DNA from: Vicinamibacteria bacterium | GTDB taxonomy: Bacteria; Acidobacteriota; Vicinamibacteria; Fen-336; JAGNNV01 | DNA length: 64,000 nucleotides | Assembly (NCBI GenBank): GCA_019694155.1 | Contig: JAIBCN010000038.1 | Span: 1-64,000, forward strand | Direction of reading: 5' to 3' | Part shown: in pieces, positions 37,307-59,104 of the stretch | Layout of the letters: the number at the start of each line of letters is the position of its first letter | Numbering within the stretch: position 1 is the stretch's first letter | Notes under the pieces: model-generated | Seen by the model: the letters and a program-made list of their open reading frames with translations, nothing else | Told to the model about the DNA's origin: nothing | The model's database searches: none | Made by a program: the position numbers and the translations under genes

Positions 37307-37313
37307 GTCTGCC

Positions 37314-38711
37314 TCATTTCTGCGATCTCCTTGTGGCCCCCCTCGGGCCGATCTCCAGGGTCACCGGCTCGCCGTCGAGGGGCAGCGCCGCGCTCCCCGT
37401 CCAGGAGAACAGGCTCGGCTCCGGAAGGTCCGCGGCGCTCATCATGAAGACCTTGTTCACCCGCCGCAGGTGCGCCGGTCCCGCGGCGTTCCCTGGCGGA
37501 ACCTCATCCTTCTTCGGAGGACGCGCGTGCGCGCGAACCTGAAGGGAGACGATGTCCTTCGAGGCGGTGCCGGCCGGCAAGGCCACCGAGCCCCGGAAAC
37601 AGCTGTTGGGGAAGTTGTCGGGGGAGCGGGAGATCCGGAACTCCCTGACCCCGTAGGTCGAGTCGAAGAACCGCGGCGCCTGGCCCCCGTGGGACACCCC
37701 GAGAGAGAACGTGAAGGTCGCGAATGTGGTGTCGTCCGAGGCGGTGCAGAGCTCGACCACCGTGTACCGGCTGGGGTCGAAGATGCGCTTCGAGCCAGGG
37801 GCGGGGGTTGCGGCCACGCGCTTTTCCCGGCGCGCCTCCCGCGCGGTCACCGCATAGGTCCAGGGGTTCTCGTCCATGACCTTCTCGCGCGAGGCGTCGG
37901 TCAGGTCGAAGGCGGTGGGGGCGGGCGCGAAGCGCTGCTCGGTCACCCCCCCGTCCTTGACCATGTTGTTGTCGGTGACCACGTAGAGCAGCGGATGGCG
38001 TCCCTCACGCCGGCCCTTGAAGGGGACGATCTCATGGTCCTTGCCCTGGAACGTCTCCTCGATCACGCGGCCCTCGCGGTCGAACTCGATGCCGTACACG
38101 TACTCGATGTCGGTCAGCCGGCCCCAGGTGGCGAGCAGCCGGTCCGCCGGAGTGCCGCCGTCCTCGTTGCTGAAGATCACCGAGTAGCGGATTCTCGACC
38201 CCCGCTCGGTGGCGTCGACCTCGTACCACATGAGCAGGGGCACATCCGTGAAGCGGCCGACCGTGTTGGGCCTCGCGTACAGGATCGGCGCCAGCTCCAC
38301 GGCCGTGTGTTCCGGGGCCGTGGCCGCGACCGGGGTGATCGTAACGCCGGAGATAGCGACCGATCTGGGCGCCTTCCCCCACGCGCCCGTGTCGTGGGCC
38401 AGAGTCAGGGTGTGCTTCCCGAAGGCGAGCGGACCGAGCATGACCTTGTACTCCGACGCCGAAGCGCCGCGGGTGAGGAAGAGGTGCTGCGAGTATCTGC
38501 CGTCCACTTCGAGGCGGAGCACCGCGGCCTCGTGTCCCTCGCGGCCCCAGTCGCACCCGTGGCACGAAGCGTTGATGGTCGCGATCACCTCCGCGCCTTC
38601 CTTGAGCTCGAAGGCTTCGCTGCGGATGAGGGTGGCCTCGCTGGCAGCGGCTCCGGCGGCGAAGGAGGGAAGGGCGCTCAGGAACGCGGCACAGAGCCAG
38701 TGTCTCATCAT
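37314..38711 (-). CDS. Secreted protein of unknown function
   Basis: The 465-residue product starts with a signal peptide (MMRHWLCAAFLSALPSFAAG). It then has a beta-rich domain with TINASCHGCDWGREG, where two cysteines are two residues apart, followed by a region starting PLLMWYEVDATERGSRIRY and a tail of about 40 residues. The composition suggests a jelly-roll carbohydrate-binding module in the first 130 residues. I do not recognise the family. The start is at a double ATG; the first was taken. The gene lies 49 bp from the divergent ATPase gene and 7 bp upstream of glpF, so it may be co-transcribed with the channel. Confidence 0.7.
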   Translation of the reverse strand: MMRHWLCAAFLSALPSFAAGAAASEATLIRSEAFELKEGAEVIATINASCHGCDWGREGHEAAVLRLEVDGRYSQHLFLTRGASASEYKVMLGPLAFGKHTLTLAHDTGAWGKAPRSVAISGVTITPVAATAPEHTAVELAPILYARPNTVGRFTDVPLLMWYEVDATERGSRIRYSVIFSNEDGGTPADRLLATWGRLTDIEYVYGIEFDREGRVIEETFQGKDHEIVPFKGRREGRHPLLYVVTDNNMVKDGGVTEQRFAPAPTAFDLTDASREKVMDENPWTYAVTAREARREKRVAATPAPGSKRIFDPSRYTVVELCTASDDTTFATFTFSLGVSHGGQAPRFFDSTYGVREFRISRSPDNFPNSCFRGSVALPAGTASKDIVSLQVRAHARPPKKDEVPPGNAAGPAHLRRVNKVFMMSAADLPEPSLFSWTGSAALPLDGEPVTLEIGPRGATRRSQK

Positions 38712-38760
38712 CTTTCGGTGGCGGGGAGTATAGAGTCGCGCCCCACGAGTCAAACACGCC

Positions 38761-39816
38761 ATGAGGGTTCGCTTCGAGAAAGTCGGCAAGCAGTTCGGCG
38801 CCCATCGCGCGCTGCGCGACATCGATCTCGATATCGAACCCGGCGAATGCCTGGTGCTCCTCGGTCCCTCGGGCTGCGGGAAGACGACGCTCCTGCGGCT
38901 CCTGGCCGGCCTCGAGGACGCGGACACCGGCCGAATCCTGATCGGAGAGCGGGACGTGGCGGATGTCCGTCCCGCCGATCGCGACGTGGCCATGGTCTTT
39001 CAGAACTACGCGCTTTATCCCCATCTCTCGGTTTTCGAGAATGTCGCCTTTCCCCTGAGGGCGCGCGGCGTCGCTTCCGAGGAACTCGATCGGCGGGTGC
39101 GCGCGGCGCTCTCGCGCATGGAACTCACGGCCCTCCTCGACCGGAAGCCGAGCCAGCTCTCGGGTGGCCAGCAGCAGAGGGTGGCGCTCGCCCGCGCCCT
39201 CGTCCGCAACCCCGCCGTGTATCTGATGGACGAGCCCCTCTCGAACCTCGACGCCCAGCTTCGGCTGCAGACCCGCACCGAACTCCGGCGCCTGCAGCAG
39301 GAGCTGCGCACCACCACGGTCTACGTGACGCACGATCAGAGCGAGGCGATGACGCTGGGCGATCGGATCGCGCTGCTGCGGGACGGCGCCATCGAGCAGG
39401 TGGGACCTCCGCTCGATCTGTACCGGCGCCCGTCCAGCCGATTCGTGGCGGCATTCCTCGGGAGCCCTCCCATCAACCTCTGGCCTGCGGTTGTGGGGGC
39501 TTCCGGCGCCCTCCGCGCCGCGGGCATTGAGTTCGCCCCGGGGCCGCCGAGCCGCCCCGCCCGGATCGACATCGGCGTCCGGCCAGAGGATGTGACGGTC
39601 TCGATGGAGCCGGGGCCGTCGTCGGTCGGGGGAACCGTCCTGCTCGCGGAGCCCATGGGGAACGAGACGATCGTGACACTGACGAGCGATGGAAGCCGTG
39701 TCGTGTCCCGCGCCCCCGCCGACTTCGCCCCGCGGCCGGGAAGCCCCGTGTACTTCTCCATCGCCCCCGGAAGAGCCCTGTACTTCGACGGAGAGAGCGG
39801 CCGCCGGATCGCCTGA
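38761..39816 (+). CDS. ABC transporter ATPase, MalK/UgpC type
   Basis: The 351-residue ATPase has Walker A GPSGCGKTT near residue 40, Q-loop FQNYALYPH, signature LSGGQQQRVALARAL and Walker B VYLMDEPLSNLD. A C-terminal TOBE-type regulatory domain (IDIGVRPEDVTV) marks the sugar-importer (MalK/UgpC) subclass. These ATPases often serve several sugar permeases. The nearest permeases without an ATPase are the fused binding-protein/MalF and the MalG-type proteins 7-10 kb upstream, so it is a reasonable but unproven partner. The stop is 15 bp before the palindrome ahead of the next gene. Confidence 0.93.
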   Translation: MRVRFEKVGKQFGAHRALRDIDLDIEPGECLVLLGPSGCGKTTLLRLLAGLEDADTGRILIGERDVADVRPADRDVAMVFQNYALYPHLSVFENVAFPLRARGVASEELDRRVRAALSRMELTALLDRKPSQLSGGQQQRVALARALVRNPAVYLMDEPLSNLDAQLRLQTRTELRRLQQELRTTTVYVTHDQSEAMTLGDRIALLRDGAIEQVGPPLDLYRRPSSRFVAAFLGSPPINLWPAVVGASGALRAAGIEFAPGPPSRPARIDIGVRPEDVTVSMEPGPSSVGGTVLLAEPMGNETIVTLTSDGSRVVSRAPADFAPRPGSPVYFSIAPGRALYFDGESGRRIA

Positions 39817-39830
39817 CGCGTTCAAGGATC

Positions 39831-39842
39831 TGGAACGTTCCA
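39831..39842. promoter_or_regulatory. Palindromic operator TGGAACGTTCCA, copy 1
   Basis: A perfect 12-bp palindrome with a central CG, the form seen in LacI-family operators. It is identical to 52414-52425 and stands 28 bp upstream of the -35 box of the receptor gene. The regulator is not in the window. Confidence 0.75.
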
Positions 39843-39870
39843 AGGCGCGTCGCTTGAGGCTGAAGCGGAG

Positions 39871-39900
39871 TTGACAGCCGGGAAGACCTGAGCGTATGTT
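39871..39900 (+). promoter_or_regulatory. Sigma-70-type promoter of the Oar receptor gene
   Basis: A consensus TTGACA (39871-39876) is 18 bp from TATGTT (39895-39900). The predicted leader before the ATG is about 80 bases. Confidence 0.6.
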
Positions 39901-39984
39901 GCCTCACATCCGTCAAGCGGACGTAGCGGGGATGTCTTGGTCCCTGACGATGATTCGTCCCCCGAACAATCACTGAGGAGACAC

Positions 39985-42900
39985 ATGATGAAGCGAGTTC
40001 TTATTGCGGTGATGGCGATGCTGTGCATCGTTCCCGCAGTGCAGGCCCAGGTCGACCGCGCCACCCTGTCGGGCACGGTGAGGGACTCGGGCGGAGGCGT
40101 CCTCGCCGGCGCCACGGTCACGGTCACCAACATCGCCACCAACGTGGCGAGCACGACCACCACTTCGAGCAGCGGCACCTATCTCGTGGTGAACCTCCGC
40201 TCCGGCCAGTACCTCATCGAGGCCGAGGCCAAGGGCCTCCAGAAGTCGGTCCAGAGCGTCATCCTCCAGATCGGCCAGCGCGGCCGCGTCGACATCACCC
40301 TCGGGGTCGGTCCCCTCACCGAGTCGGTCACGGTCGAAGGCGCCCAGCGCCTCCTGGATACGGGTGAGGCGACCCTCGGCACGGTCGTCGACAACGACGC
40401 GATCGGCAAGCTCCCCCTCGCCATCCGGAACTGGGACGACCTCCTCGCCCTCGTCCCCGGCGTGCAGGGTGACCGTTACACCGAGCAGGGCGGCGGAACA
40501 TCGTTCGGCCGCACCGGCGGCGTGAACGTCCATGGCGCCCGTTCCCTCCAGAACAACTTCCTCCTCGACGGCGTTGACAACAACTCCATCTCGGAGAACG
40601 TCCAGGAGCTGACCTCGCAGGTTTCCCGCCCCTCGGTCGACGCGATCCAGGAATTCAAGATCGTCACCAGCCCCTACTCGGCCGAGTACGGCCGCTCCCC
40701 GGGCGCCGCGGTCAGCGTTTCCACCAAGTCCGGCACCAATGAGTTTCATGGCACGGTGTACGACTTCTTCCGCAACGAGGCGATGGACACCATCGACTTC
40801 TTCTCGAACCGCGCGGCGGCTCTCACCAACACCACGCCGGTGAAGCCGAGCAACAAGCAGAACCAGTTCGGCGGCAACCTCGGAGGTCCGCTCGTCAAGG
40901 ACAAGGCGTTCTTCTTCGTCGACTACGAGGGCACGCGCATCACCCGCGGCGTCACCCGTCTCACCGTGGTCCCGACCGCCGATCAGCGCAACGGCATCCT
41001 GCCCGGCGTGCGCGACCCGCTCACCGGCCAGCCCTTCCCCGGCGGCGTGATCCCCGCGAGCCGCATGGACCCCATCGCGGTCGCCATCATGGGCCTCGTG
41101 CCCATGCCCAACCAGCCCGGGGCCAACAACTTCTTCCGCCAGGCCGACCTCATCGACAACTCCGACCGCGTCCTCGGTCGCCTCGACTACAAGGTGGGCT
41201 CCAATGACAGCTTCTTCGCCCGCTACATGTACTCGAACCGCGACCGCCAGATTCCCGGCGCCTTCGGCGGCGTCATCGACGGCACCGGCACCTCCGGCTT
41301 CGGCAACCAGAAGATCAAGACCAACGCCGCGGTGCTCGGCTGGACCCACATTCTCTCCCCCAGCATGGTGAACGAGTTCCGCTTCTCCTGGTCCAAGTCC
41401 GACTCGGACGCCGTTCATCAGGCCTTCGGCATCGCTCCTCCCGCGAATGCGACCATCCCCAACACGGTCACGAATCCGGTGGTGGCCGGCGGTTACGCGG
41501 GCATCACCATCGACGGTTTCTTCGGCGGCTCCGGCCTCGGCCGCCTCGGTTCTCCGGACTTCCTTCCGAAGTTCCAGCACACCCAGCAGATGGAGTTCGT
41601 GGAGAGCCTCTCCTGGCTCAAGGGCAATCACTCGCTCAAGTTCGGCGTGGACATCATGGCCCCCATGGAGAACGAGTACTACGACGTGCCCGCCGGCCGC
41701 GGCGCGATGCGGTTCCGCAACAGCTTCACCGGCAGCGCGATGGGGGACTACCTCCTCGGCTACGTCTCCGACTTCCAGCTGAGCAACGTCTGGATCGTCA
41801 ACCAGGTGCACTGGGCGTCGATGTTCTACGTGCAGGACGACTGGAAGGTGAACTCCAAGCTGACCCTGAACCTCGGGCTCCGCTATGACTTCATCACTCC
41901 CGCCATGGAGAAGAGCAACGCCCAGACCAACTTCAATCCCGCGGGCGGGGGAAGCCTGGTCTTCGCCAAGGACGGGTCGCTCCAGGAGCGCGGCCTCGTG
42001 AATCCGGACAAGAACAACTTCGCGCCCCGCGTGGGTGTCGTCTACTCCCTCGATGAGAAGACGGTCCTCCGCGGCGGCTGGGGCATCTTCTACAACCTGT
42101 TCGACCGCGTCGGTTCCGAAGATCAGCTGGCCCTGAACCTTCCCGGCCTGAACAACACGTCGATCACCCAGACCTCGGGCTCGCCCGTGTTCTTCCTGAA
42201 GAACGGGCTCCCCATCAGCCAGTTCCTCACCGCGCCGAATCTTGACCCGGCCGCCGGCCAGCTCAAGAGCAAGCGTATCCGCGCAGTGGCGCAGGACGCC
42301 CCGAAGACAACCCTGACCCAGGCGAGCTTCGGCATCCAGCGCGAGCTCATGAAGGGGGTCGTGGTCACGGCCGACTTCGTGTGGACCAAGGGCAGCAACC
42401 TCGCCTCCCTGGTGAACCTGAACCAGCCGCTGCCGAACGCGGCCGGGAACAACGCTTTGGGCGCCCTTCCCTATCCGAACTTCGGATTCGTGGAATGGCG
42501 CGCGCAGGACGCGAAGTCCGACTACAAGGGCGTCGACTTCGGCATCGAGCGCCGCTTCTCGAAGGGCTACGGCTTCGGCGTCGCCTACACTCTCGGCGAA
42601 TCGAAGGACAACGCATCCGAGCAGCTCTCCACCCAGGGCTCGAATGCGTTCCCGCAGAACGCTCGTGACTTCTCGGGCTGGTACGGCCCGAGCGACTACG
42701 ACGTCCGTCACCGCCTGGCCGTCAACTTCGTGGCCGAGCTGCCGTTCGGCAAGGGCAAGAAGTGGGCCAAGGAAGGGTTTGGCGCCGCCATCCTCGGCGA
42801 CTGGACCCTCTCCGGGATCTACACCTACCGCAGCGGACGGCCCTTTACCGTCAACCAGTCCGGCAACAACGTGGGCACCAACATGACCGGCCTGCCCAAC

Positions 42901-43263
42901 CAGATCGGCGATCCGGAGAGCGGCGTCGACCGGAGCTGCAACTCCACGACCGACTGCGCGGCGGTGGTGAAGTGGTTCAACCCCACGGCGTTCCAGGCGG
43001 TGGTGTCGGGGAACTTCGGCAACGAGCAGCGGAACCAGCTCCGGGGACCGAACTACAAGAGCTTCGACTTCACCCTGCAGCGCAGGATCAACGTCAGCAA
43101 GCGCGTCGGCGCCACCTTCCGCTGGGATGTCTTCAACGCCTTCAACACCGTGAACTTCGGCCTGCCGAACCGCAACCTCACCGACACCGCGAACGTGGGC
43201 ACGATCACGAGCCTCGGCGGCGATCCGCGGCTCATGCAGGTTTCGCTGCGGCTGACGTTCTAG
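39985..43263 (+). CDS. Oar-type TonB-dependent receptor
   Basis: The 1092-residue outer-membrane protein has a signal peptide (VLIAVMAMLCIVPAVQA) and a carboxypeptidase-regulatory-like domain (ATLSGTVRDSGGGVLAG). A plug follows (NFLLDGVDNNSISENVQEL and FKIVTSPYSAEYGRSPGAAV) and then a long barrel ending in MQVSLRLTF. Such receptors take up large substrates, often polymers or peptides, with TonB energy. The ATG at 39985 is one of a tandem pair; GAGGAG lies 4 bases before the first and 7 before the second. Upstream are a good sigma-70 promoter and the palindrome shared with the second Oar receptor. It is followed by a phosphatase and a transaldolase gene on the same strand. Confidence 0.93.
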   Translation: MMKRVLIAVMAMLCIVPAVQAQVDRATLSGTVRDSGGGVLAGATVTVTNIATNVASTTTTSSSGTYLVVNLRSGQYLIEAEAKGLQKSVQSVILQIGQRGRVDITLGVGPLTESVTVEGAQRLLDTGEATLGTVVDNDAIGKLPLAIRNWDDLLALVPGVQGDRYTEQGGGTSFGRTGGVNVHGARSLQNNFLLDGVDNNSISENVQELTSQVSRPSVDAIQEFKIVTSPYSAEYGRSPGAAVSVSTKSGTNEFHGTVYDFFRNEAMDTIDFFSNRAAALTNTTPVKPSNKQNQFGGNLGGPLVKDKAFFFVDYEGTRITRGVTRLTVVPTADQRNGILPGVRDPLTGQPFPGGVIPASRMDPIAVAIMGLVPMPNQPGANNFFRQADLIDNSDRVLGRLDYKVGSNDSFFARYMYSNRDRQIPGAFGGVIDGTGTSGFGNQKIKTNAAVLGWTHILSPSMVNEFRFSWSKSDSDAVHQAFGIAPPANATIPNTVTNPVVAGGYAGITIDGFFGGSGLGRLGSPDFLPKFQHTQQMEFVESLSWLKGNHSLKFGVDIMAPMENEYYDVPAGRGAMRFRNSFTGSAMGDYLLGYVSDFQLSNVWIVNQVHWASMFYVQDDWKVNSKLTLNLGLRYDFITPAMEKSNAQTNFNPAGGGSLVFAKDGSLQERGLVNPDKNNFAPRVGVVYSLDEKTVLRGGWGIFYNLFDRVGSEDQLALNLPGLNNTSITQTSGSPVFFLKNGLPISQFLTAPNLDPAAGQLKSKRIRAVAQDAPKTTLTQASFGIQRELMKGVVVTADFVWTKGSNLASLVNLNQPLPNAAGNNALGALPYPNFGFVEWRAQDAKSDYKGVDFGIERRFSKGYGFGVAYTLGESKDNASEQLSTQGSNAFPQNARDFSGWYGPSDYDVRHRLAVNFVAELPFGKGKKWAKEGFGAAILGDWTLSGIYTYRSGRPFTVNQSGNNVGTNMTGLPNQIGDPESGVDRSCNSTTDCAAVVKWFNPTAFQAVVSGNFGNEQRNQLRGPNYKSFDFTLQRRINVSKRVGATFRWDVFNAFNTVNFGLPNRNLTDTANVGTITSLGGDPRLMQVSLRLTF

Positions 43264-43369
43264 CCGCGACGGTCGTGAACGGCGCGTCGTCTCCCGGCCC
43301 GAGGGGCGGCGCGTCGTTCGCTTTAAGGGGCGGTCGTCGTCGTCACTCGAGCAGGATTAGCCTCGTCTT

Positions 43370-45019
43370 ATGAGAAACGCCCTTCTTGTCGCCGCCCTAG
43401 CCCTGGCTCTCGCGAGCCCGGGCCGCGGACAGACCGGACTTCCGGCTGCCCCGGCGCCCCCCGGGCCGCGCCTCGTCGTCGTGGTCTCGGTCGACCAGAT
43501 GCGATACGACTACCTGGTTCGCTTCAAGCCGCTCTTCACCGGCGGGTTCAGGACGCTCATCGACCGAGGCGCGATCTTTTCGAACGCCCGCTACCGCCAC
43601 GCGAACTGCGAGACCGGTCCCGGCCACTCGGTGATCCTCTCGGGTCGCAACGCCTGGCAGTCGGGGATCGTGGCCAACTCATGGTTCGATTCCGAGCTTC
43701 TGCGGACCGTGAACGTGGTGGACGATCCCACCGTCCTCCCCGTGGGCGGGCCCGGTCGGGGCGCATCGCCCGCGAACTTCGTCGGCTTCACCCTGGGCGA
43801 CGTCCTGAAGCACACCCGCCCCGGAGCGAAGGTGGTCGGGGTCTCCATGAAGGATCGCGCAGCCATCCTGATGGCCGGGCCGCGGGGCGACGCCGCCTAC
43901 TGGTACGAGCAGGCGACAGGCGAGTTCATCAGCAGTACCTACTACATGAAGTCCGCCCCTCCGTGGCTCGACCAGATCAACCGCCGCCGCGTGCCCGATT
44001 CCTACGGGGGCAAGTCGTGGACCCGGCTGGCCGACGACCCCGGTCTGTACCTGAAGTATGCGGGTGAGGACAACGTGCCCACCGAAGCGGATACGAAGAA
44101 CACCACTTTTCCGCATGCCCTCCCCGCCGCCGGAACCCCGGCGCTCTACGACAGTTTCCGTCGCACTCCCTTCATGGACGAGCTGACCCTGGACGTGGCG
44201 CTCCAGGCCATGAACGCGCATGGTCTTGGCGAAGACGAGGTGCCGGACGTGCTCGCGGTCGGCTTCTCCGCGACCGACGTGATCGGCCACGCCTTCGGTC
44301 CCGATTCCCAGGAGATGCTGGACCAGCTGCTGCGCCTGGACCGGATCCTGAAGCGACTGCTCGACGCGGCCGAGGCGAAAGCCGGGGCCTCCCGCACCCT
44401 CATGGTTCTCACCGCCGATCATTCGGTGATGCCACTCGTCGAGTCGCTTCAGAAGCAGGGCCTCGAGGCGCGGCGGGTGTCGCCGGGGTCGCTGCAGGCG
44501 GCGGGGATGAAGGCGCTCGAGGCGCGCTTTCCCGGCGCCAGGGACATCGTGGCCTCTTACCTGGCGCCCGATTTCTACCTGAACCTCGATTCGATCGCGC
44601 GCCAGGGGCTGCGGCGCAAGGATGTCGAGCAGACCCTCGCCGACGCGCTCCTCGCCACCGGCGACGTCGCGAAGGTCTACACCGCATCCTCGTTCGCGGG
44701 GGAGCCCCCCTCTCCGTCCGAAGATCCTTACTTCGACCCGGTGCGGCGTTCCTACTTCGCGCCCCGCAGCCCCCACGTGATCGCCCGGCTCAAGGAGTAC
44801 ATGTACCTGACTTCCTACCCTGGCGGCACCGGCCACGGGTCTTCCTATGAGTACGATCGTCACGTGCCTTTGGTCTTCCTGGGCTCGAGGATCAAGGCCG
44901 GGACGTACGAGCTGGAAACCGGGCCGGAGGACATCGCACCTACCCTCGGCCTCCTGCTCGGGATCGACTACCCCCTTCAGGACGCCCGCCGCCGCCTCAC
45001 CGAGATGATCCAGAACTGA
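43370..45019 (+). CDS. PafA-like alkaline phosphatase superfamily enzyme
   Basis: The 549-residue secreted enzyme begins with a signal peptide (LLVAALALALASPGRG). It has the superfamily core VVSVDQMRYDYL (metal site), the nucleophile T82 in NCETGPGHS, and SMKDRAAIL with K161 and R163, the residue pair that marks phosphomonoesterases of the PafA type. The late metal sites appear as GFSATDVIGHAFGPDS, LTADHSVMP and GTGHGSSYEYD. It should release phosphate from phosphomonoesters in the periplasm. Phosphodiesterase side activity is possible. It lies 106 bp after the Oar receptor, perhaps serving uptake of phosphorylated compounds. Confidence 0.9.
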   Translation: MRNALLVAALALALASPGRGQTGLPAAPAPPGPRLVVVVSVDQMRYDYLVRFKPLFTGGFRTLIDRGAIFSNARYRHANCETGPGHSVILSGRNAWQSGIVANSWFDSELLRTVNVVDDPTVLPVGGPGRGASPANFVGFTLGDVLKHTRPGAKVVGVSMKDRAAILMAGPRGDAAYWYEQATGEFISSTYYMKSAPPWLDQINRRRVPDSYGGKSWTRLADDPGLYLKYAGEDNVPTEADTKNTTFPHALPAAGTPALYDSFRRTPFMDELTLDVALQAMNAHGLGEDEVPDVLAVGFSATDVIGHAFGPDSQEMLDQLLRLDRILKRLLDAAEAKAGASRTLMVLTADHSVMPLVESLQKQGLEARRVSPGSLQAAGMKALEARFPGARDIVASYLAPDFYLNLDSIARQGLRRKDVEQTLADALLATGDVAKVYTASSFAGEPPSPSEDPYFDPVRRSYFAPRSPHVIARLKEYMYLTSYPGGTGHGSSYEYDRHVPLVFLGSRIKAGTYELETGPEDIAPTLGLLLGIDYPLQDARRRLTEMIQN

Positions 45020-45056
45020 GCGCGACACGTTCCGCGCACCCTCCGAGGTCGATCCC

Positions 45057-46139
45057 ATGACTGAAGCAAGCCGCATGCGACTCACCGTCCAGAAAGGCGC
45101 GGAGTTCTGGAATGATTCGTGTTCCCTGACCGAGCTCGCGGACGCGGTGGCGCACGGCGCAACCGGCGCCACTTCGAACCCGGTCATCGTGTCCGCGGTG
45201 GTCAAGGCTGATCCGAAAACGTGGAACCCGGTCCTCGACGACATCGTCGCCGCCAACCCGACCGCGACCGAGGACGAGATCGCCTGGCTCCTGATCGAGG
45301 AGATCGGCCGTCAGGCCGCGAAGATACTTCTGCCCGTGCACGCGCGCACGGCTGGAACGCAGGGGTACCTCTCCATCCAGGTGAGCCCCAAGTTCCACGC
45401 GAACGCGGATCGCATGATCGAGCACGGACGCGCTCTCGCCGGCCTCGCCCCCAACATCGCGATCAAGATCCCTTCCACCGCGGCCGGAGTGAAGGCGGCG
45501 GAGGAGCTCGTGGCCGAGGGCATCAACGTGAACGCCACCGTCAGCTTCACGGTCTCGCAGGCGGTGACGGTGGCCGAAGCCTTCGAGCGCGGGCTCGACC
45601 GGGCGCAGAAGGGCGGGGCCGACATGACGCGCCTGCATCCCTACATGACGCTGATGGTGGGACGCCTCGACGACCTCCTGCAGCGGGTGATGGTGAAGGA
45701 GCAGATCGCCATCGACCCCGGGTACCTCGCGTGGGCCGGCATCGCGGTGTTCAAGCGCGCTCATGAGATCTTCACGAAGCGGGGCTTCAGAGCCTCGCTC
45801 CTCGCCGCCGCCTACCGCCACCATCTTCACTGGTCGCAGCTCATCGGGCCGGGGGTGATCCTCACCATGCCGTACGCCTGGTGGAAGCAGTTCGAGGCTT
45901 CGGACATCGAGGTCGAGGAGACGCTCGATCGGAAGGTCCGCCCCGAGGTGCTGGAAGCCCTTCAGCGCAAGTTCAGGGACTTCAACCTCGCCTACGATGA
46001 GGGTGCTCTCGCCCCGCCGGCTTTCGCGTCCTATGGCGCGAGCGTTCACACCCTCAACCAGTTCCTCGGCGGCTACCAGGAACTCCTCGGGCTCGTGAGA
46101 GAGCGCATGCTGGAGCCGCGTCCGCAGGGCGCCCGGTAG
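45057..46139 (+). CDS. tal: Transaldolase family protein
   Basis: The 360-residue protein is a class-I aldolase barrel of the transaldolase family. The Schiff-base lysine is K137 in NIAIKIPST. TGATSNPVIV and GVILTMPYAWW are further family-like segments. Transaldolases move a dihydroxyacetone unit between sugar phosphates in the pentose-phosphate pathway. The protein is longer than the short (about 220-residue) type and seems closer to the longer single-domain forms, whose substrate can differ. A GAGGT site precedes the ATG. It is 37 bp after the phosphatase gene. Confidence 0.85.
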   Translation: MTEASRMRLTVQKGAEFWNDSCSLTELADAVAHGATGATSNPVIVSAVVKADPKTWNPVLDDIVAANPTATEDEIAWLLIEEIGRQAAKILLPVHARTAGTQGYLSIQVSPKFHANADRMIEHGRALAGLAPNIAIKIPSTAAGVKAAEELVAEGINVNATVSFTVSQAVTVAEAFERGLDRAQKGGADMTRLHPYMTLMVGRLDDLLQRVMVKEQIAIDPGYLAWAGIAVFKRAHEIFTKRGFRASLLAAAYRHHLHWSQLIGPGVILTMPYAWWKQFEASDIEVEETLDRKVRPEVLEALQRKFRDFNLAYDEGALAPPAFASYGASVHTLNQFLGGYQELLGLVRERMLEPRPQGAR

Positions 46140-46167
46140 ACCCGAGACGCCCTGCGCGCGTGACGCT

Positions 46168-48858
46168 CTACGGCCGGGGCTTCGCCAGGCCCGGCGTCGG
46201 GGCCTTGTTCAGCGAGAGCACGTTCCCGAGCAGGCGATAGGCGCCGGGGACGCCATAAGGCAGCTGGCGGTGGAAGGCGTAGGCGAAGTAGGTGTAGTGA
46301 CCCTTGCCGTAGGTCGCGTGCAGCCATCCTCCCTTCTGCTTCTCCTGGCCCTTGTCCCAGGTGGCGATCATCGGCGTGTAGGCCTTGTCCCACTCCGTGA
46401 AGAACTTCGAACCGCGCTGCTCGACCCAGTTCTCGAAGTCGGCGGCGGTGATCTTGTTCGGATAGTTGAAGACGGGCTCGGTCGGGGCCAGGATCTCCAC
46501 CGGCGAGTCCTCCTCGGAGACCTCCTCGGCCCGGGCCGGCAGCTGCGCGGGGTAGGGCGCCCACTTGTTCGGGATGAACTCCTGGGTGTTGTAGAGGACC
46601 ACCATGTTGCCGCCCGCCTTGACGTAGTCGAGCAGCCGCTGGTTGTAGGTCTTGAGGTCGTCGCGGACCGCGTAGGCGCGCGTGCCGGTCATGATGGTGT
46701 CGAACTGCTGCAGGTTGGCGCTCGCGAGCTCCTTCTCACCAAGCAGCGTCACGGTGGCGCCGAGCTGGGCGAGGCCCGCGGGGACCTGGTCGCCGACTCC
46801 CATGACGTAGCCGACCTTGAGGCCCGCGGGCACGGTCACGTCGATGCCCCGCACGCTGATGGTGGAGGGGCGATAGAGGAGGCGGGTCTCGAGGTCGCGC
46901 TTCGCGATGATGGAATAACCCTCGGTGTATTCGCGCCCGTTCGCCTTCGCCACCGCCTGGATCTCGTAGCCCTTGTTCTCCAGGGAGGGGATGGAGACCG
47001 TGAATTTGTAGACGCTCCGTTCGCCGGCGCGCGCGTACTTGAAGGGCTGGCTCGCGGGAGTGGAGGTCCAGCCCGTGGGGAGCTTCAGCGACAGATCGCC
47101 CGCGATGTCACCCTCGACGTTGTTCAGGAGGTCGACTTCTACCGCGACCCGCTTTCGCAGCGCCTTGAGGGGCACCACCGCGGAACCGGGGCTCACGGTG
47201 AGGGCGAGGGCCGGGACCACACGCAGTTCCCGCATCTCGTAGCCGTAGGGCAGGTTGCTCTCGCGGCGCGTCACGACCTCCCGCGCCTCCACATCGACGC
47301 CCTCGACGGTATAGCGGGCCAGCGCGACCGCCGGGGCCTCGGACGCCGGCCGGTGAATCTGTTTCGCGTCGTTGATGTCGTAACGCGACTGCTGGATGGT
47401 CGGCCGGGTGAAGTAGGGCTTCGAAGAGAGCCCGACGTCATTCGCGAGAGTGACCGAGAACCGCTGAATGCCGGTGTTGTTGTACTTGAGCGAGGTCATG
47501 GGCGCCGCGCCCGTGGGGCTCGCCTGCCAGCCGGAGGCGGTGCTGAGGGTGATGCCGCGCAGGGTGACGTCGCTCGCGCTGCGGTTGGTGAAGAAAGCGC
47601 GCACCTCGAAAGTCTGTCCCGGAACGGGAGCGGCCATGGTGGGCGGCGGCGCGAATTCGGCGAAGGGACCGGTCGCCTCCGGCACGCCGGCCGGCTGGGC
47701 CATGGCCTTGAAGTCGACGCCCAGAGCCGCGGTGATGGCGGACTCGAACTGGCGCTCTTTGACCTTCAGGAGGAAAGTCGCCTCGGGTTCCCCCGTCCCG
47801 AGCGCCGACAGAGCCTCGCGGGTCGCCTTGAGGCCGCGGGCGAGAGCGGGCACGGCGAGGGAGGGGTTCGTCATCGAGAAGGCCGCCACCGCGTTCGTCA
47901 CCTCGCGGTCGATGGTCTGCAGCAGGGCATCGACGCCCGCGGGCGCGGGCCGCCCAATCGTCTTGAACAGGCCGGGAATGGTGGTGTCGATCCCGTCGAA
48001 GAAGCTCTCCTCCTTGGCGGCCGAGGCCACCGTCGACCCAACGCGCTTGTAGTACCCGTACTGCGGGCCGCGCGAGAGCTGGAGGCGCCCGCTGTTCTGG
48101 GAGCGCTGGAAGGACAGGCCGATGCGGGCGAAGTTGTTGTAGGTCTCGCCGAGCCAGGGGCTGTAAGCGCCCGGGTCCACGCGGATGTTCCATTCCTCGT
48201 TCTCCCGCTGTCCGCCCACGTAGACCTTCAGGGGCTGCCACGGCCGCAGGCCCTCGGCGATCTGCTCCGGGAACATCTTGGGGTCGCCCGCGGCCTTGAA
48301 GGCCTCCGGCGTGATCATCCCCGCGGTCTGGTGGTTGCCGTGGCCGTCGCGCTGGGTTCCCTGGAAGCGGGAGATGAGCACGAAGGGCCGGTTCATCCGG
48401 ATCACCCGGACCACGTCCCGCAGGACGTTCTCCTTGCCCCATTTCCCGAGCGCCTCCTCGATGCTCTTGGAGAAGCCGTAGTCCGCGACGGTGGTGAAGT
48501 ACTGGTCATCGACGCCGTAGTACCGGTCGGCATCGATCAGTTCCTCGGTCCGGATGAGCCCGAGGCCATCGAAGAGCTCGGAGCCGATGGCGTTGTCGCC
48601 CGACTCGCCGCGATTCAAGGTGAGGAGCGACAGTCGTGCTCCCTGGCCGCGGGAGAGCTGGGAGAGGACGCCGCCGTGCTCGTCGTCGGGATGCGCGGTG
48701 GTGTGCATGGCGCTCGCGGTTGTCTTGAGCTTGAGGATCTTCTGGAAAACACCGGAAGCTCCTTGATCCTGGGGGATCTCCGCGCCGGCAAGCGCGGGCT
48801 TCCGGCTGGTAACGAGCAGGGCGAGGACGACGGCGATGGACATCTTCAGCGATTTCAT
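46168..48858 (-). CDS. PIG-L-type deacetylase fused to NEW3 and GATase-like domains, secreted
   Basis: The 896-residue secreted protein starts with a signal peptide (MKSLKMSIAVVLALLVTSRK). The PIG-L/LmbE deacetylase domain follows with HTTAHPDDEHGG near residue 52 and HGNHQTAG, the zinc-binding sites. A long middle part contains two beta-sandwich NEW3-like domains (RAFFTNRSASDVTLRG and VAVEVDLLNNVEGDIAG). The C-terminal part (GLKVGYVMGVGDQVPAGLAQ, YVKAGGNMVVLYNT) looks like a class-I glutamine-amidotransferase-like fold without an evident catalytic cysteine. It probably removes acetyl groups from a sugar outside the cytoplasm. GGAG lies eight bases before the ATG. It is downstream of the second Oar gene, separated by a terminator. 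Confidence 0.87.
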   Translation of the reverse strand: MKSLKMSIAVVLALLVTSRKPALAGAEIPQDQGASGVFQKILKLKTTASAMHTTAHPDDEHGGVLSQLSRGQGARLSLLTLNRGESGDNAIGSELFDGLGLIRTEELIDADRYYGVDDQYFTTVADYGFSKSIEEALGKWGKENVLRDVVRVIRMNRPFVLISRFQGTQRDGHGNHQTAGMITPEAFKAAGDPKMFPEQIAEGLRPWQPLKVYVGGQRENEEWNIRVDPGAYSPWLGETYNNFARIGLSFQRSQNSGRLQLSRGPQYGYYKRVGSTVASAAKEESFFDGIDTTIPGLFKTIGRPAPAGVDALLQTIDREVTNAVAAFSMTNPSLAVPALARGLKATREALSALGTGEPEATFLLKVKERQFESAITAALGVDFKAMAQPAGVPEATGPFAEFAPPPTMAAPVPGQTFEVRAFFTNRSASDVTLRGITLSTASGWQASPTGAAPMTSLKYNNTGIQRFSVTLANDVGLSSKPYFTRPTIQQSRYDINDAKQIHRPASEAPAVALARYTVEGVDVEAREVVTRRESNLPYGYEMRELRVVPALALTVSPGSAVVPLKALRKRVAVEVDLLNNVEGDIAGDLSLKLPTGWTSTPASQPFKYARAGERSVYKFTVSIPSLENKGYEIQAVAKANGREYTEGYSIIAKRDLETRLLYRPSTISVRGIDVTVPAGLKVGYVMGVGDQVPAGLAQLGATVTLLGEKELASANLQQFDTIMTGTRAYAVRDDLKTYNQRLLDYVKAGGNMVVLYNTQEFIPNKWAPYPAQLPARAEEVSEEDSPVEILAPTEPVFNYPNKITAADFENWVEQRGSKFFTEWDKAYTPMIATWDKGQEKQKGGWLHATYGKGHYTYFAYAFHRQLPYGVPGAYRLLGNVLSLNKAPTPGLAKPRP

Positions 48859-48907
48859 GTTTGAGACTCCGCTTGGTTGATGCGCGACGGTAGGCGAGGT
48901 GCGTCCG

Positions 48908-48937
48908 AAAAAAGGGGCGGGCCGAATCGACCCGCCC
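48908..48937 (-). terminator. Rho-independent terminator of the second Oar receptor gene
   Basis: On the minus strand GGGCGGG pairs with CCCGCCC around a 9-base loop, and a run of six T follows one base later. It lies 45 bp after the receptor stop and before the deacetylase gene, which thus needs its own promoter or read-through. Confidence 0.85.
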
Positions 48938-48981
48938 ATCGTGTTGTGGTGAGGCCGGAGCGCAAGGCTCCCGGCCGGTCG

Positions 48982-51900
48982 TCAGAAGTAGAACTTGAGG
49001 GCGAACTGCATCTCGCGGACATCACCGATAGTGGAGGTGATCTTCCCGAAAGTGGCGGTGTTCGCGACACTCGCTCCCGGCAGGGAGTAGTTCTTCCAGT
49101 TGAAGAGGTTGAAAGCCTCGGCCCGGAATTCGAGCCGGCGGTCCTTGCCCACCGGGAAGCTGCGGAAGAGGGAGGCGTTCATGCTCTTCTGGCCGGGGCC
49201 CCGGAGGGTGTTCGAGCCGCAGGTCCCGAATGTGAAGGCAGCAGGCTGGCTGAACTGCGTGGTGTCGAACCACTTGTCGATGGTCTTCTCGAATCCGCTC
49301 GGCTGGGCATCGCCCAGGCAGTTGGCGCGGATCTGCTGTCCGGCGCCGGTGGTGCCGGAGACGTTGGTCGCGGTGGCCGAGAAGGGCCGCCCGGAGTTCA
49401 GGGACAGGATGCCGTTCATGCTCCAGTTGTTGAGGATCGCGCCCACGCCGTGGAACTCCGTCTTCCGGCCCCGGCCCGCGGGAAGTTCGGCCACGAAGCT
49501 CAGGACGAAGCGATGGGGAACGTCGAAGGCCACCGGGCCGTAGTCCGCCGCCATGTTGTAGGCGTTGCCGGGGAAGTTCCCCGAAGCGCCCTGTCCGGCG
49601 GAGAGGTGGTCGAGGAAGTCGGCCTTCGCCCGCGAGTAGGTGTACGAGGCGGTGAACCCGAGTCCGCGGGTCATGCGGCGCTGCAGCTTGGTCTGGAGGG
49701 CATGGTAGTCGGAGCGGCCATTCGTCACGATCTGCTCCAGGAAGGCGGTGCCGTAGCCGTACTGCGCGTACGGGAAGACCACGGTCGAGGGCCCGGTGAT
49801 CTGACCCTGGTTCAGGTTGCGAAGCCTCCGGCCGTTGCGGATGATGTTGCCGACATACTCCAGTGAAAGCACGGTGTTGGAGAACACCTGGTATTCCGGG
49901 CCTGCGCTGAACTGATAGACGATCGGCGTCTTCTGGTTCGGGTCCTGGATGCGCCACTGAAGGAGGGCCGGGTTCACGTTCGCAAGGGTGGGGGTGGTGA
50001 AGCCGTTCTTCAGGGTCAACACCGGCGCGGTGTTCGCGTTCGCCGCGGTGACGTTGACGTCGACCAGCTGCGGCGGGTTCAGGGCCATCTGGGCTTCGGA
50101 ACCGTAGCGATCACTGTTCTGATAGAAGATCCCGAAGCCCGCGCGCATGACGAGCTTTTCCGAGGCCGAGTAGGAGATGGACAGGCGCGGCGCGACGTTG
50201 TTCTTGTCGGGATGCACGAGGGTCTGTTCGTACATGCTGCCCGATTCCTTCGCCACGATTCGCTGGCCGGTGGCGGGGTCGATGTTGGTGAGGGCGTGAT
50301 CCTCGTCCTGTGTGGGAGTGAAGTACTCGTAGCGGATTCCGTAGTTGATGGCCAGCTTGTTGGTTGGCCGCCAGGAATCCTGGGCGAAGAACTGGATGCC
50401 GTCGGTGAAGAGCTTGGCTTCGTGGAAGAGGGTGATGCGCTGCGCGGAAGCCATGCCGAGGAGGAAGTCCCCGATGCCTGAGCCCGTGTAGCGCGCGTCG
50501 CTGAATGTCGCCGCGCCGTTCAGGGCGACGAGGTCGATGTAGTCCACCTTGTCGCGCCTGACCTCCGCCCCGAACTTGAAGGAGTGGCTGCCGCGCTGCC
50601 AGGTGGTGTTGGCGGAGAACTGGAAGACCTGGGCGGTCTGGAACTGGGGCCGGAACGACGGGCCGCCGAGCCGGGTCAGGCCGGCGATGTTCATGGCCGC
50701 GAGGCCGCCCGTGTAGCGGGGGTCGGCGGGAATGCCGGTGATCCCGTACTCCTTGTTCGAGTCCGTTCCGAACGCCTTCTGGTAGGTGTTCCCCTGGATC
50801 TTGTTCCAGCCGAGGCGCACTTCGCTGAACACCGACTGCTTCAGGGCGCGCGACCAGCCGAGGACCGCGCTCTGGCCGGTGATGTCGATGTCGGAGTTGA
50901 AGTCGCCGGAGACGACCGGGCCGAGGACGGGGGGCTCGTTGCGCTTGTTGTTGTAGCGGCTGTAGCGGACGAAGACGGAGTCCTTGCCGCTTTCGCTGGG
51001 CTTCGCGTCGACCCTGACGTCGAAGGAGTTCACGTCGTTCTGAAGGATGCCGTTGCTGATGTAGTTGGCGCCCGCCGCGCCGAACCGGCCGGCCTGTCCT
51101 TCGATGGCCTGGGCGGCGGGAACGTTGGGCAGGGGATAGAGATTGATCAGCTTCGCGGCGATGGGGTCGAAGCACGAAGGCGAGATCACCTTGGTGGTGG
51201 TGTTCACGCAGCCGGCGGGAACGAACGAGTTCGCGGTGAGCGCTCGGGACAGCTCGGAGAGGTCTCCCTGCCGCATGCGCGCGGTGGGAACGGTGGCGAG
51301 GTCCGTGACCGCCTTGTCGCTGCGGGTGATCTGGTAGTCGCCGAAGAAGAACACCTTGTTCTTCTTGATCGGTCCGCCGAGAGTGAAGCCTCCGATGTAC
51401 TGGTTGTACGGGCCCTTCGCGCGGTTCGCCGCGATGTTCTCGAAGGTATTGGCGTTGAACTTCTCGTCGCGCAGGAAGCCGAACACCGTTCCCCGGTAGG
51501 CGTTCGTGCCCTGCTTGATGGAGGCATTGATCACGGCCCCCGCCGACTTGCCGAACTCCGCTGAATAGGTCCGGGTCTGGACGCGGAACTCCTCGAGCGC
51601 GTCGACCGGGGGCTGAACCACCTGGGCGGAGCGCTCCTGCAGGTTGGTGGAGCCGGAGTTGTTGTCGGCGCCGTCGAGCGAGTAGTTGTTCCAGGTGCCG
51701 GGGTTGCCGTTGGCGTTGAAGGAAGTGTCTTCGCCGAGGGACGCGAGCTGGCGGCCGCCGGGGACGACGCCCGTCTGCAGAAGAGACAGCTCCGCGTAGC
51801 GGCGGCCGAGGAGCGGCAGGTCGGTGAGCTGCTTCTGGTCGACCACATGGCCCATTTCCCCGGTCTGGGTATTGAGAAGGGGCGCTTCACCAACCACCGT

Positions 51901-52293
51901 TACTTCCTCGGTCATGACGCCCACATCCAGCTTGAAGTCGGCCTGGAGCCGTTCCTGGACATGCAGTTGCAGTCCGGAGCGCACGGCCTTCTTGAAGCCG
52001 GACATCTCGGCGGTGACGAGGTACTTGCCGATCTTCAGGTTCGGGAAGGTGTACTGGCCCTTGCTGTTGGTCACTTCGCTCATCCGGAAGCCGCTCCCTT
52101 CCTGGGTCGCCACCACGGTGGCGCCGGGCAGGACGCCGCCCTGGCCGTCGGTCACCGTGCCCACGATGGAGCCGGCGTCGATCTGGGCCTGGGCCGTCAT
52201 GGGAAGAAGGGTCAAGGACGCAGCCAGAGCCAGCAAACCGCAGGCTGGGGCCAGGCGAAACGCGCGCGATGCGTTCCTGAGGAAGGTGTTCAT
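48982..52293 (-). CDS. Oar-type TonB-dependent receptor, second copy
   Basis: The 1103-residue outer-membrane protein has a signal peptide (LAPACGLLALAASLTLLPMT, then AQAQ) and a carboxypeptidase-regulatory-like domain (GSIVGTVTDGQGGVLPG). A plug follows (NNYSLDGADNNSGSTNLQE and FRVQTRTYSAEFGKSAGAVI) and a large barrel ending in MQFALKFYF. It resembles the receptor at 39985 in layout but is clearly diverged. The ATG at 52293 is supported by AGGAG eight bases upstream. A weak promoter and the same 12-bp palindrome precede it, and a good terminator follows. The transported substrate is unknown. Confidence 0.93.
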   Translation of the reverse strand: MNTFLRNASRAFRLAPACGLLALAASLTLLPMTAQAQIDAGSIVGTVTDGQGGVLPGATVVATQEGSGFRMSEVTNSKGQYTFPNLKIGKYLVTAEMSGFKKAVRSGLQLHVQERLQADFKLDVGVMTEEVTVVGEAPLLNTQTGEMGHVVDQKQLTDLPLLGRRYAELSLLQTGVVPGGRQLASLGEDTSFNANGNPGTWNNYSLDGADNNSGSTNLQERSAQVVQPPVDALEEFRVQTRTYSAEFGKSAGAVINASIKQGTNAYRGTVFGFLRDEKFNANTFENIAANRAKGPYNQYIGGFTLGGPIKKNKVFFFGDYQITRSDKAVTDLATVPTARMRQGDLSELSRALTANSFVPAGCVNTTTKVISPSCFDPIAAKLINLYPLPNVPAAQAIEGQAGRFGAAGANYISNGILQNDVNSFDVRVDAKPSESGKDSVFVRYSRYNNKRNEPPVLGPVVSGDFNSDIDITGQSAVLGWSRALKQSVFSEVRLGWNKIQGNTYQKAFGTDSNKEYGITGIPADPRYTGGLAAMNIAGLTRLGGPSFRPQFQTAQVFQFSANTTWQRGSHSFKFGAEVRRDKVDYIDLVALNGAATFSDARYTGSGIGDFLLGMASAQRITLFHEAKLFTDGIQFFAQDSWRPTNKLAINYGIRYEYFTPTQDEDHALTNIDPATGQRIVAKESGSMYEQTLVHPDKNNVAPRLSISYSASEKLVMRAGFGIFYQNSDRYGSEAQMALNPPQLVDVNVTAANANTAPVLTLKNGFTTPTLANVNPALLQWRIQDPNQKTPIVYQFSAGPEYQVFSNTVLSLEYVGNIIRNGRRLRNLNQGQITGPSTVVFPYAQYGYGTAFLEQIVTNGRSDYHALQTKLQRRMTRGLGFTASYTYSRAKADFLDHLSAGQGASGNFPGNAYNMAADYGPVAFDVPHRFVLSFVAELPAGRGRKTEFHGVGAILNNWSMNGILSLNSGRPFSATATNVSGTTGAGQQIRANCLGDAQPSGFEKTIDKWFDTTQFSQPAAFTFGTCGSNTLRGPGQKSMNASLFRSFPVGKDRRLEFRAEAFNLFNWKNYSLPGASVANTATFGKITSTIGDVREMQFALKFYF

Positions 52294-52378
52294 TGGGATC
52301 ACTCCTGAAAGGGGTAGAGAGTTGCACATGGCGAAGATCCGGACAATTTCCCGCGCCCAGGCACTGTCGGTTGCGGAA

Positions 52379-52407
52379 ACATTACTCCGAAGGAACTCTG
52401 CTGTCTA
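52379..52407 (-). promoter_or_regulatory. Possible promoter of the second Oar receptor gene
   Basis: On the minus strand TAGACA (52407-52402) and TAATGT (52384-52379) are 17 bp apart. The -35 box is good and the -10 box poor. The leader would be about 80 bases, as in the other receptor gene. Confidence 0.4.
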
Positions 52408-52413
52408 GGACTT

Positions 52414-52425
52414 TGGAACGTTCCA
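52414..52425. promoter_or_regulatory. Palindromic operator TGGAACGTTCCA, copy 2
   Basis: Identical to 39831-39842. It ends 6 bp before the predicted -35 box of the minus-strand receptor gene and 120 bp from its ATG. Confidence 0.75.
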
Positions 52426-54555: not shown

Positions 54556-54984
54556 TTACTTCGTGGGTGCGGGGGACGCGGCGGGAGCGGCGGTCGGCGC
54601 CACGGAGGCCGAGGGTGATGCCACCGCGGCGGGGGCCGCGGGAGACGGAGACGCCGTCGGGGTCAAAGGCATGCCGAGGACGTTCGTGGGCGCGGCGGCC
54701 GGGGTCGGGGAGGCCGCGGCCGGGATGGCATCGAGTACCGACGACTCCTTCTGCTTGAGCACGGCGAGCGAGATGCTCGTGATCATGAAAACCGCGGCGA
54801 GGCCGGTGGTCACGCGGGAGAGCAGGGTGGCCGAGCCTCGCGGGCCGAAGGCCGCCTGGGTGCCGCCGCCTCCGAATGCGCTCGCCAGGTCCTGCCCCTT
54901 GCCCTGCTGGAGCAGGACGACGGCGATCAGGAAGAAGCACGCAATCAGGTGCAGGATCAGAACAAGGTAGTAGAGAACGGTCAT
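54556..54984 (-). CDS. secG: Protein-export membrane protein SecG with Ala/Pro-rich tail
   Basis: The 142-residue SecG has the two expected membrane helices (LVLILHLIACFFLIAVVLL and TTGLAAVFMITSISLAVL). Between them is the conserved loop QQGKGQDLASAFGGGGTQAA. SecG joins SecYE and helps SecA-driven export. The last 60 residues are almost only Ala, Pro, Ser, Thr and Val (SPSASVAPTAAPAAS), a common but lengthy low-complexity tail. It is the last gene after gap, pgk and tpiA on the same strand, an arrangement seen in many bacteria. Confidence 0.93.
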   Translation of the reverse strand: MTVLYYLVLILHLIACFFLIAVVLLQQGKGQDLASAFGGGGTQAAFGPRGSATLLSRVTTGLAAVFMITSISLAVLKQKESSVLDAIPAAASPTPAAAPTNVLGMPLTPTASPSPAAPAAVASPSASVAPTAAPAASPAPTK

Positions 54985-55053
54985 CGCTTTGTTGCCTTAT
55001 GCCTCGGGTGCAGTCGTTCCAAACGGACGAAAGAGGCGAAGTATATCGAACTC

Positions 55054-55812: not shown

Positions 55813-55825
55813 GGTCTCCTGGCTC

Positions 55826-57034: not shown

Positions 57035-57076
57035 GGTTCCTTCTTTCCCCGCACGAGCGGAACGATGCGAGAGCGG

Positions 57077-58102
<1,026 letters not shown>

Positions 58103-58225: not shown

Positions 58226-59104
58226 ATGAGCACCATTGATCTCGCCTGCGTCGGGGAGTCTTTCGAGGATCTGATCTTCGCCGGCCTCCCGCGTCTGCCC
58301 CGGCTCGGAGAGGAACTCCGCACGAAGTCCTTCGTCCGTACCTACGGCGGGGGAGCCACCATCACCGCGGTGGCGGCGGCCCGCCTCGGCGTGCCCACGC
58401 GGATCGTGAGCGGCCTCTCGGACGGCGCCCTGGCCCGGCTCAGGGCGGAGGGTGTGCAGATCACGAACCTGAGGAAGCGGGACGAACTTCACGCCATCAC
58501 CGCGGCTCTCTCGACCCCCGAAAACCGGGCCTTCGCCACGTTCGATGGCGTGAACGCCGAGTTGGGGCCGCGTTTCGTCACCGCCCTGGGCAGGGTTCAG
58601 GCGCGGATCGTTCATTGCGCTTTGTGTCCACGCGACATCCCTCCCATGGCCAGAGCCCTTCGGGCTCTGCGTGAACGCGGGGTCAAGGTGTCGCTCGACT
58701 TCGGCTACGACCTGCATCTGGCGAAGGACCCGTTTCTGCCGAGCCTCATCGCCGAAGCCGACTATCTCCTGATCAATGAAGACGAGGCCGTGCTCTACGC
58801 GAAGCGGAGGACGCTCGCGCAGGCGGCGTCCTTCTGGAGGGAGCACGCGCGCCACACCGTCATCAAGCTCGGCGCCAAAGGGAGCCTTTGGATCTCTCCC
58901 CGGGGGATCGTGGAGGAGGCGGCGCCCAAGGTCCAGGCGGTCGACACCACGGGCGCGGGTGATGCCTTCAACGCGGGGTTCCTCGCCGGACTCCTGAACG
59001 GCCTGCCCGCGCGGCGCGCGCTGAGGCTTGGGAACACGGTGGGAGCCCGGTCGACTCGCGCGGTGGGCGGCCTCGACGGCCTGCCCCGGATCGAGGAACT
59101 CTAG
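58226..59104 (+). CDS. PfkB-family carbohydrate kinase
   Basis: The 292-residue kinase has the PfkB fold. The N-terminal substrate-binding segment is RTYGGGATITAVAAARLG and the C-terminal anion-hole and catalytic motif is DTTGAGDAFNAGFLAG. Such kinases phosphorylate sugars (ribose, fructose, 2-keto-3-deoxygluconate) or nucleosides; the substrate cannot be fixed from the motifs. It starts divergently from gap and is followed after 9 bp by the membrane glycosyltransferase-like gene. Confidence 0.9.
   Translation: MSTIDLACVGESFEDLIFAGLPRLPRLGEELRTKSFVRTYGGGATITAVAAARLGVPTRIVSGLSDGALARLRAEGVQITNLRKRDELHAITAALSTPENRAFATFDGVNAELGPRFVTALGRVQARIVHCALCPRDIPPMARALRALRERGVKVSLDFGYDLHLAKDPFLPSLIAEADYLLINEDEAVLYAKRRTLAQAASFWREHARHTVIKLGAKGSLWISPRGIVEEAAPKVQAVDTTGAGDAFNAGFLAGLLNGLPARRALRLGNTVGARSTRAVGGLDGLPRIEEL

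Follow-up and report, generated by a model that had tools for sequence, protein, structure and literature searches.

Palindromic sequence upstream of two receptor genes

The window (the whole 64-kb stretch of DNA that was analysed) carries two genes for Oar-type TonB-dependent receptors on opposite strands, and several enzyme genes lie near them. An exact-match scan of the window shows two copies of the 12-bp sequence TGGAACGTTCCA, one upstream of each receptor gene, and no third exact copy. The features considered here are listed by position; G015 and G016 are genomes of the same genus and G009 is from another family of the order.

39831..39842, no strand assigned: putative operator 1, TGGAACGTTCCA (exact match; same surroundings kept in G015)
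39871..39900, + strand: predicted promoter of receptor 1, TTGACA-18-TATGTT (consensus scan; kept in G015)
39985..43263, + strand: receptor 1, Oar-type TonB-dependent receptor (PF25183, PF13620, PF07715)
43370..45019, + strand: PafA-like phosphatase (NF042991, 386 bits; PDB 5tj3, E = 9.5e-73; homologue behind iolB-iolD in G009)
45075..46139, + strand: transaldolase-family protein (PF00923; homologue in the G009 iol operon)
46168..48858, - strand: secreted deacetylase of the PIG-L type, behind receptor 2 (PF02585; same gene order in G016)
48982..52293, - strand: receptor 2, Oar-type TonB-dependent receptor (PF25183, PF13620)
52379..52407, - strand: predicted promoter of receptor 2, TAGACA-17-TAATGT (consensus scan; -35 region kept in G016)
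52414..52425, no strand assigned: putative operator 2, TGGAACGTTCCA (exact match; same surroundings kept in G016)
58226..59104, + strand: PfkB-family kinase (PF00294; weak iolC score)

Both receptors display the two hallmarks of the Oar type, i.e. a carboxypeptidase-regulatory-like N-terminal extension (PF13620) and the outer-membrane barrel PF25183 (E = 5.5e-234 for receptor 1 and 2.4e-218 for receptor 2); a plug domain was seen in receptor 1 but not in receptor 2. The genome has about 29 Oar-type receptor genes. Upstream of receptor 1, at positions 36539–39816, there are a MIP-family channel gene (- strand) and an isolated gene for a MalK-like ABC ATPase (+ strand), and the place of the ATPase gene is kept in G015.

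TGGAACGTTCCA is a perfect palindrome of even length with a central CG. This is the form of LacI-family operators, most of which are found 30–140 bp before the start codon (PMC4052901). The distances from site to start codon in the window are 142 bp (receptor 1, slightly beyond the usual range) and 120 bp (receptor 2). A preliminary description, made from the sequence of the window alone, had reported the identical pair, these distances and the opposite orientation of the two receptor genes, and all are confirmed. It should be noted that gene starts are from a simple codon-usage caller and that promoters and operons are predictions.

The same description held that a given 12-mer is expected far less than once in 64 kb. 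Markov models of order 1–3 trained on the window bear this out, with 0.002–0.005 expected copies per 64 kb and 0.18–0.39 per genome; five copies are found in the 5.27-Mb genome. A control 12-mer, read backward, is absent from the genome and occurs about 9 times across the 193 genomes of the class. The chance that at least two of the four copies not at lacI would lie less than 300 bp before any of the ~29 Oar-type genes is about 2e-5. Some genomes of the class do have single copies with no lacI or iol homologue nearby, as would be expected of a sequence that recurs without function. That the window pair is such a coincidence is nevertheless hardly credible: the genome count and the placement near Oar-type genes argue against it, and the conservation of both window sites before receptor orthologues (see below) already contradicts it. 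A chance repeat is thus ruled out by genome counts, controls and footprinting in relatives.

Genome-wide copies and the LacI-type gene

The genome is a fragmented assembly of 257 contigs with an estimated completeness of 93.7%, and another LacI gene could be missing from it. All five copies of TGGAACGTTCCA are intergenic; a scatter of the motif inside genes, named beforehand as one outcome that would speak against a regulatory role, is not seen. The copies outside the window, together with one copy having a single mismatch, are the following.

C234:32004: between iolB-iolD on one strand and, on the other strand, a LacI-type gene with an iolG-like gene after it
C77:57049: before an iolE-like gene, after which comes a Gfo/Idh oxidoreductase gene; a sugar ABC transporter is nearby
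C255:4226 (L019 4226): a phosphofructokinase gene on one side, a photolyase-like gene on the other
C82:2675 (L022 2675): TGGCACGTTCCA, the copy with one mismatch; an SSF symporter gene and an SDR gene flank it on one side, a methyltransferase gene on the other

Two of these are left as doubtful members of the regulon. The G015 orthologue of the phosphofructokinase gene lacks the site upstream of it, and the TGGCACGTTCCA site at the symporter gene has only a weak counterpart in G015 and none in G016.

A domain search gives a single match to the LacI helix-turn-helix domain in the whole genome, and it is the gene adjoining the C234 copy, with a start codon ~40 bp beyond the site. The encoded protein of 351 amino acids has the helix-turn-helix (PF00356, 51 bits; cut-off 27) as well as a periplasmic-binding-protein-like effector domain (PF13377, 130 bits; PF00532, 120 bits), the composition of the LacI family. 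No LacI gene is found within the 64-kb window, as the preliminary description had stated. Its suggestions that the palindrome belongs to a wider regulon and that a LacI-type gene should be looked for beside one of the copies both led to the C234 locus, where iolB and iolD adjoin the regulator gene. The matches there to curated NCBI models are above the cut-off for iolB (280 bits; cut-off 205) and iolD (922 bits; 715), and just under it for the iolG-like gene (339 bits; 355). The iolE-like gene on C77 is also under its cut-off (202 bits; 290). Both the lacI gene and its site adjoin iol genes, an IolR-like context that is kept in orthologues.

A GH4-family hydrolase gene and an amino-acid-permease-type gene are situated near the lacI cluster (L017, 11789–14514). 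In G016 the orthologues of these two genes and receptor 2 are on opposite sides of the operator, and alpha-glycosides of inositol could thus be involved.

Judging by the sequence context, the only LacI-type protein detected in the genome very probably binds at TGGAACGTTCCA. The receptor sites might instead serve a different LacI-type regulator that shares the operator and escaped detection, and the receptors would then be for another sugar. About 6% of the genome is missing, and central-CG operators are common to many LacI-type regulators (PMC4052901). This alternative is very improbable, given the single LacI helix-turn-helix gene found, the company that the exact 12-mer keeps with this LacI group in several phyla, and the receptor genes directly beside lacI of the C234 type in G001, L025 and L026, which are described below.

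Conservation of the sites in related genomes

G015 has exact sites upstream of two genes, the receptor-1 orthologue and iolE; G016 has them upstream of the receptor-2 orthologue and iolE, and at lacI/iolB. When the receptor-1 upstream regions are aligned, 14 bp spanning the site are identical and the predicted promoter TTGACA...TATnTT is retained, in a background that has diverged. Similarly, the site and a TRGACAGC -35 region are conserved upstream of receptor 2 against a diverged background.

In G009 the site separates lacI from iolB. The genes after iolB-iolD include homologues of the phosphatase (55%) and of the transaldolase-family protein (63%) of the window; on the opposite flank, iolA (MMSDH, 718 bits), an ABC transporter and iolG come after lacI. 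The lacI-iolA-ABC-iolG cluster ends with a 65% homologue of an MGH1-like glycoside hydrolase encoded in the window at 24960–26249; there is no exact palindrome near this window gene. In G001 the order is lacI (67%), a phytase gene, the site and an Oar-type receptor gene.

Exact copies are present in 14 of the 193 genomes of the class, several relatives being incomplete assemblies (contig L024 is the same as G016:C402 and was counted once). For the lone copies in other genomes of the class, a lacI or iol homologue was not found nearby; in G192 an Oar-type gene is ~3 kb away from the copy, and the copies in G173 are inside open reading frames. These lone copies were not accepted as members of the regulon.

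Other classes and phyla

The exact palindrome before an orthologue of the LacI gene, with adjoining iol genes, is also found beyond the class (in addition to G009: L025, L026, L027, L028 and L069). Representatives of Terriglobia (L025) and of RBG_13 Acidobacteria (L026) have two copies each, between lacI and a divergent TonB-dependent receptor gene, and the L025 cluster also carries a phytase gene. In the Gemmatimonadota (L027 and L028) the palindrome precedes the LacI orthologue in iol clusters, and L028 has iolC (345 bits; cut-off 300) and a PafA-like gene. A further example is the exact palindrome before the LacI orthologue of an Arthrobacter (L069).

Across the LacI set, operator and recognition helix vary together: VSKSLVS or VSKSVVS is paired with TGGAACGTTCCA, VSRALVS with TAGAGCGCTCTA and VSPSLVS with TGTAGCGCTACA. 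Many actinobacterial proteins with VSKSLVS show no such palindrome in the stretch scanned. The motif allows the inositol regulon to be read across Acidobacteriota and Gemmatimonadota.

The C234 LacI protein is seated among inositol genes, and therefore the two receptors of the window probably take up inositol compounds. It appears highly probable, on the genomic evidence, that the window sites are operators of an IolR-like LacI regulator of myo-inositol catabolism and that both receptors belong to its regulon; their cargo would probably be inositol phosphates or other inositol conjugates. The preliminary description had pointed to transporter and glycan genes; the wider regulon stands, and its subject appears to be myo-inositol catabolism in place of glycan use in general. 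A general carbohydrate or glycan regulon was rejected, the conserved targets being inositol genes.

Position of the sites relative to predicted promoters

At iolB the predicted promoter is TTGACA-18-TAGCTT, and the site comes after its -10, spanning the position where transcription should start. For iolE, three genomes show the site overlapping the predicted -35 (-10, TAACAT). These are classical positions for a repressor, and release by inositol or an early intermediate would be the natural reading. In most LacI-type proteins it is the ligand-free form that binds DNA (PMC4052901). In the proposed mechanism, the LacI protein would bind TGGAACGTTCCA when there is no inositol signal and block the promoters of iolB-iolD, lacI-iolG and iolE, until it was released by inositol or by a product formed early in inositol breakdown. 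Both Oar-type receptors, the PafA-like phosphatase and the PIG-L deacetylase would be regulated together with the iol genes.

The receptor sites are upstream of the predicted -35, with centres ~34 bp (receptor 1) and ~12 bp (receptor 2) from it, i.e. near -70 and -48 of the predicted promoters. In the E. coli gal system a LacI-family protein acts from about -60. The difference of 22 bp between the two sites relative to the -35, about two helical turns, was reproduced as first described, and the distances are nearly equal in the sister genomes (36 and 13 bp there). Upstream location, similar sister spacing and the two-turn interval are what would be seen if the same LacI protein, within the same regulon, activated the receptor genes from upstream in the manner of the dual regulators Cra and PckR; dual LacI-type regulators have been described (PMC4052901). 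The preliminary description had taken the location to suit activation or looping better than simple blocking. The location itself stands, and does not by its own imply activation, as the same site overlaps the promoters of iol enzyme genes. Activation is considered rather unlikely, since the site is on the predicted promoter at iolB and iolE, the receptor site is downstream of the predicted promoter in G001, L025 and L026, and the iolBD operon of G009 contains homologues of genes that follow receptor 1. The last two points also favour, with some reserve, the reading that bound LacI hinders polymerase or an activator at the receptor promoters and that inositol releases it there. Looping, which had been proposed as well, would call for second sites near the receptors, and the best candidates have at least 3 mismatches; this proposal was abandoned.

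Enzyme genes near the receptors and possible cargo

The phosphatase gene probably shares an operon with receptor 1. Its score of 386 bits is below the curated NF042991 cut-off of 650 and the protein is accordingly named PafA-like. The match to PDB 5tj3 spans the length of the protein and active-site stretches align, including those surrounding the threonine nucleophile of PafA, its asparagine and its Lys-Asp-Arg group. A signal-peptide-like start is seen in this protein as well as in the PIG-L protein behind receptor 2.

The complete canonical iol pathway, with a curated IolC and an IolJ aldolase of the PF01116 type, is not displayed by this genome: PF01116 has no match in it, and the best match to iolC is 103 bits (cut-off 300). 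Because these two were not found, the transaldolase-family gene (45075–46139) is proposed as a possible stand-in for the IolJ aldolase and the PfkB gene (58226–59104) as a possible stand-in for IolC. In G016 the orthologue of this PfkB gene and the receptor-2 gene are transcribed away from each other, with the operator between them. Glycolytic genes (TIM, PGK, GAPDH) are grouped near receptor 2 at 54556–58087 (- strand) in the window; in G016 the genes for PfkB, GH4 and the permease, which diverge from receptor 2, are followed by the TIM/PGK/GAPDH block.

Judged from the neighbouring genes only, the cargo of the receptors is likely to be inositol phosphates or other inositol conjugates; it is the PafA-like phosphatase and the phytase genes of G001 and L025 that point to these compounds. 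The receptors would import them and the enzymes would help to free inositol. In the importer reading the regulon comprises receptor, phosphatase or phytase, ABC transporter and iol enzymes. The fuller proposal, that Oar-type receptors include importers of inositol phosphates in a LacI-controlled regulon and that the transaldolase-family enzyme and PfkB replace IolJ and IolC, is tentative and falls somewhat short of even chances. It indicates two candidate replacement enzymes for the inositol pathway. Soils store organic phosphorus in large amounts as inositol phosphates.

Comparison with known systems

A literature search combining inositol, LacI, Acidobacteriota and regulon gave nothing relevant. 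The Caulobacter IolR belongs to another protein family. The inositol module of Caulobacter resembles the present one in having a palindrome common to scattered inositol operons, including an ABC transporter, but the motif is GGAA-N6-TTCC and there is no receptor (PMC2597717). This motif was rejected for the window sites, as the spacing differs (N6 versus a central CG).

Seven orthologous groups of LacI-type IolR regulons have been described (Ravcheev et al. 2014, PMC4052901). They share with the present case a LacI-family regulator, an even palindrome with central CG, autoregulation and inositol gene targets; unlike here, no Acidobacteria are covered and TonB receptors are not mentioned in the text. 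The Bacillus IolQ is likewise a LacI-family repressor of an inositol gene, but its motif is AGAAARCGCTTKCK and its target is iolX, not receptors (PMC5504672). In the Xanthomonas sux system, the LacI/GalR-family SuxR controls the TonB-dependent receptor SuxA and catabolic genes, but for sucrose and in one compact locus (PMC1790865).

A TonB receptor and a phytase are encoded side by side in Citromicrobium, with phytate the proposed cargo (PMC3400609), and a TonB receptor gene is beside a phytase gene in Flavobacterium, where the response is to phosphate depletion (PMC8115612). In the passages of these two papers that were consulted a LacI or iol link is not reported. Thus LacI inositol regulators, a LacI-controlled TonB receptor and receptor-phytase pairs are already known, and what is added is a substrate hypothesis for Oar-type receptors. 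The namesake of the type, Oar of Myxococcus, is a TonB-dependent transporter as well, but is needed for secretion of the protease PopC, with no inositol link given in the abstract (PMC6434023). Oar-type receptors rarely have a known cargo, and the link to a regulon gives two of them a testable class of substrates.
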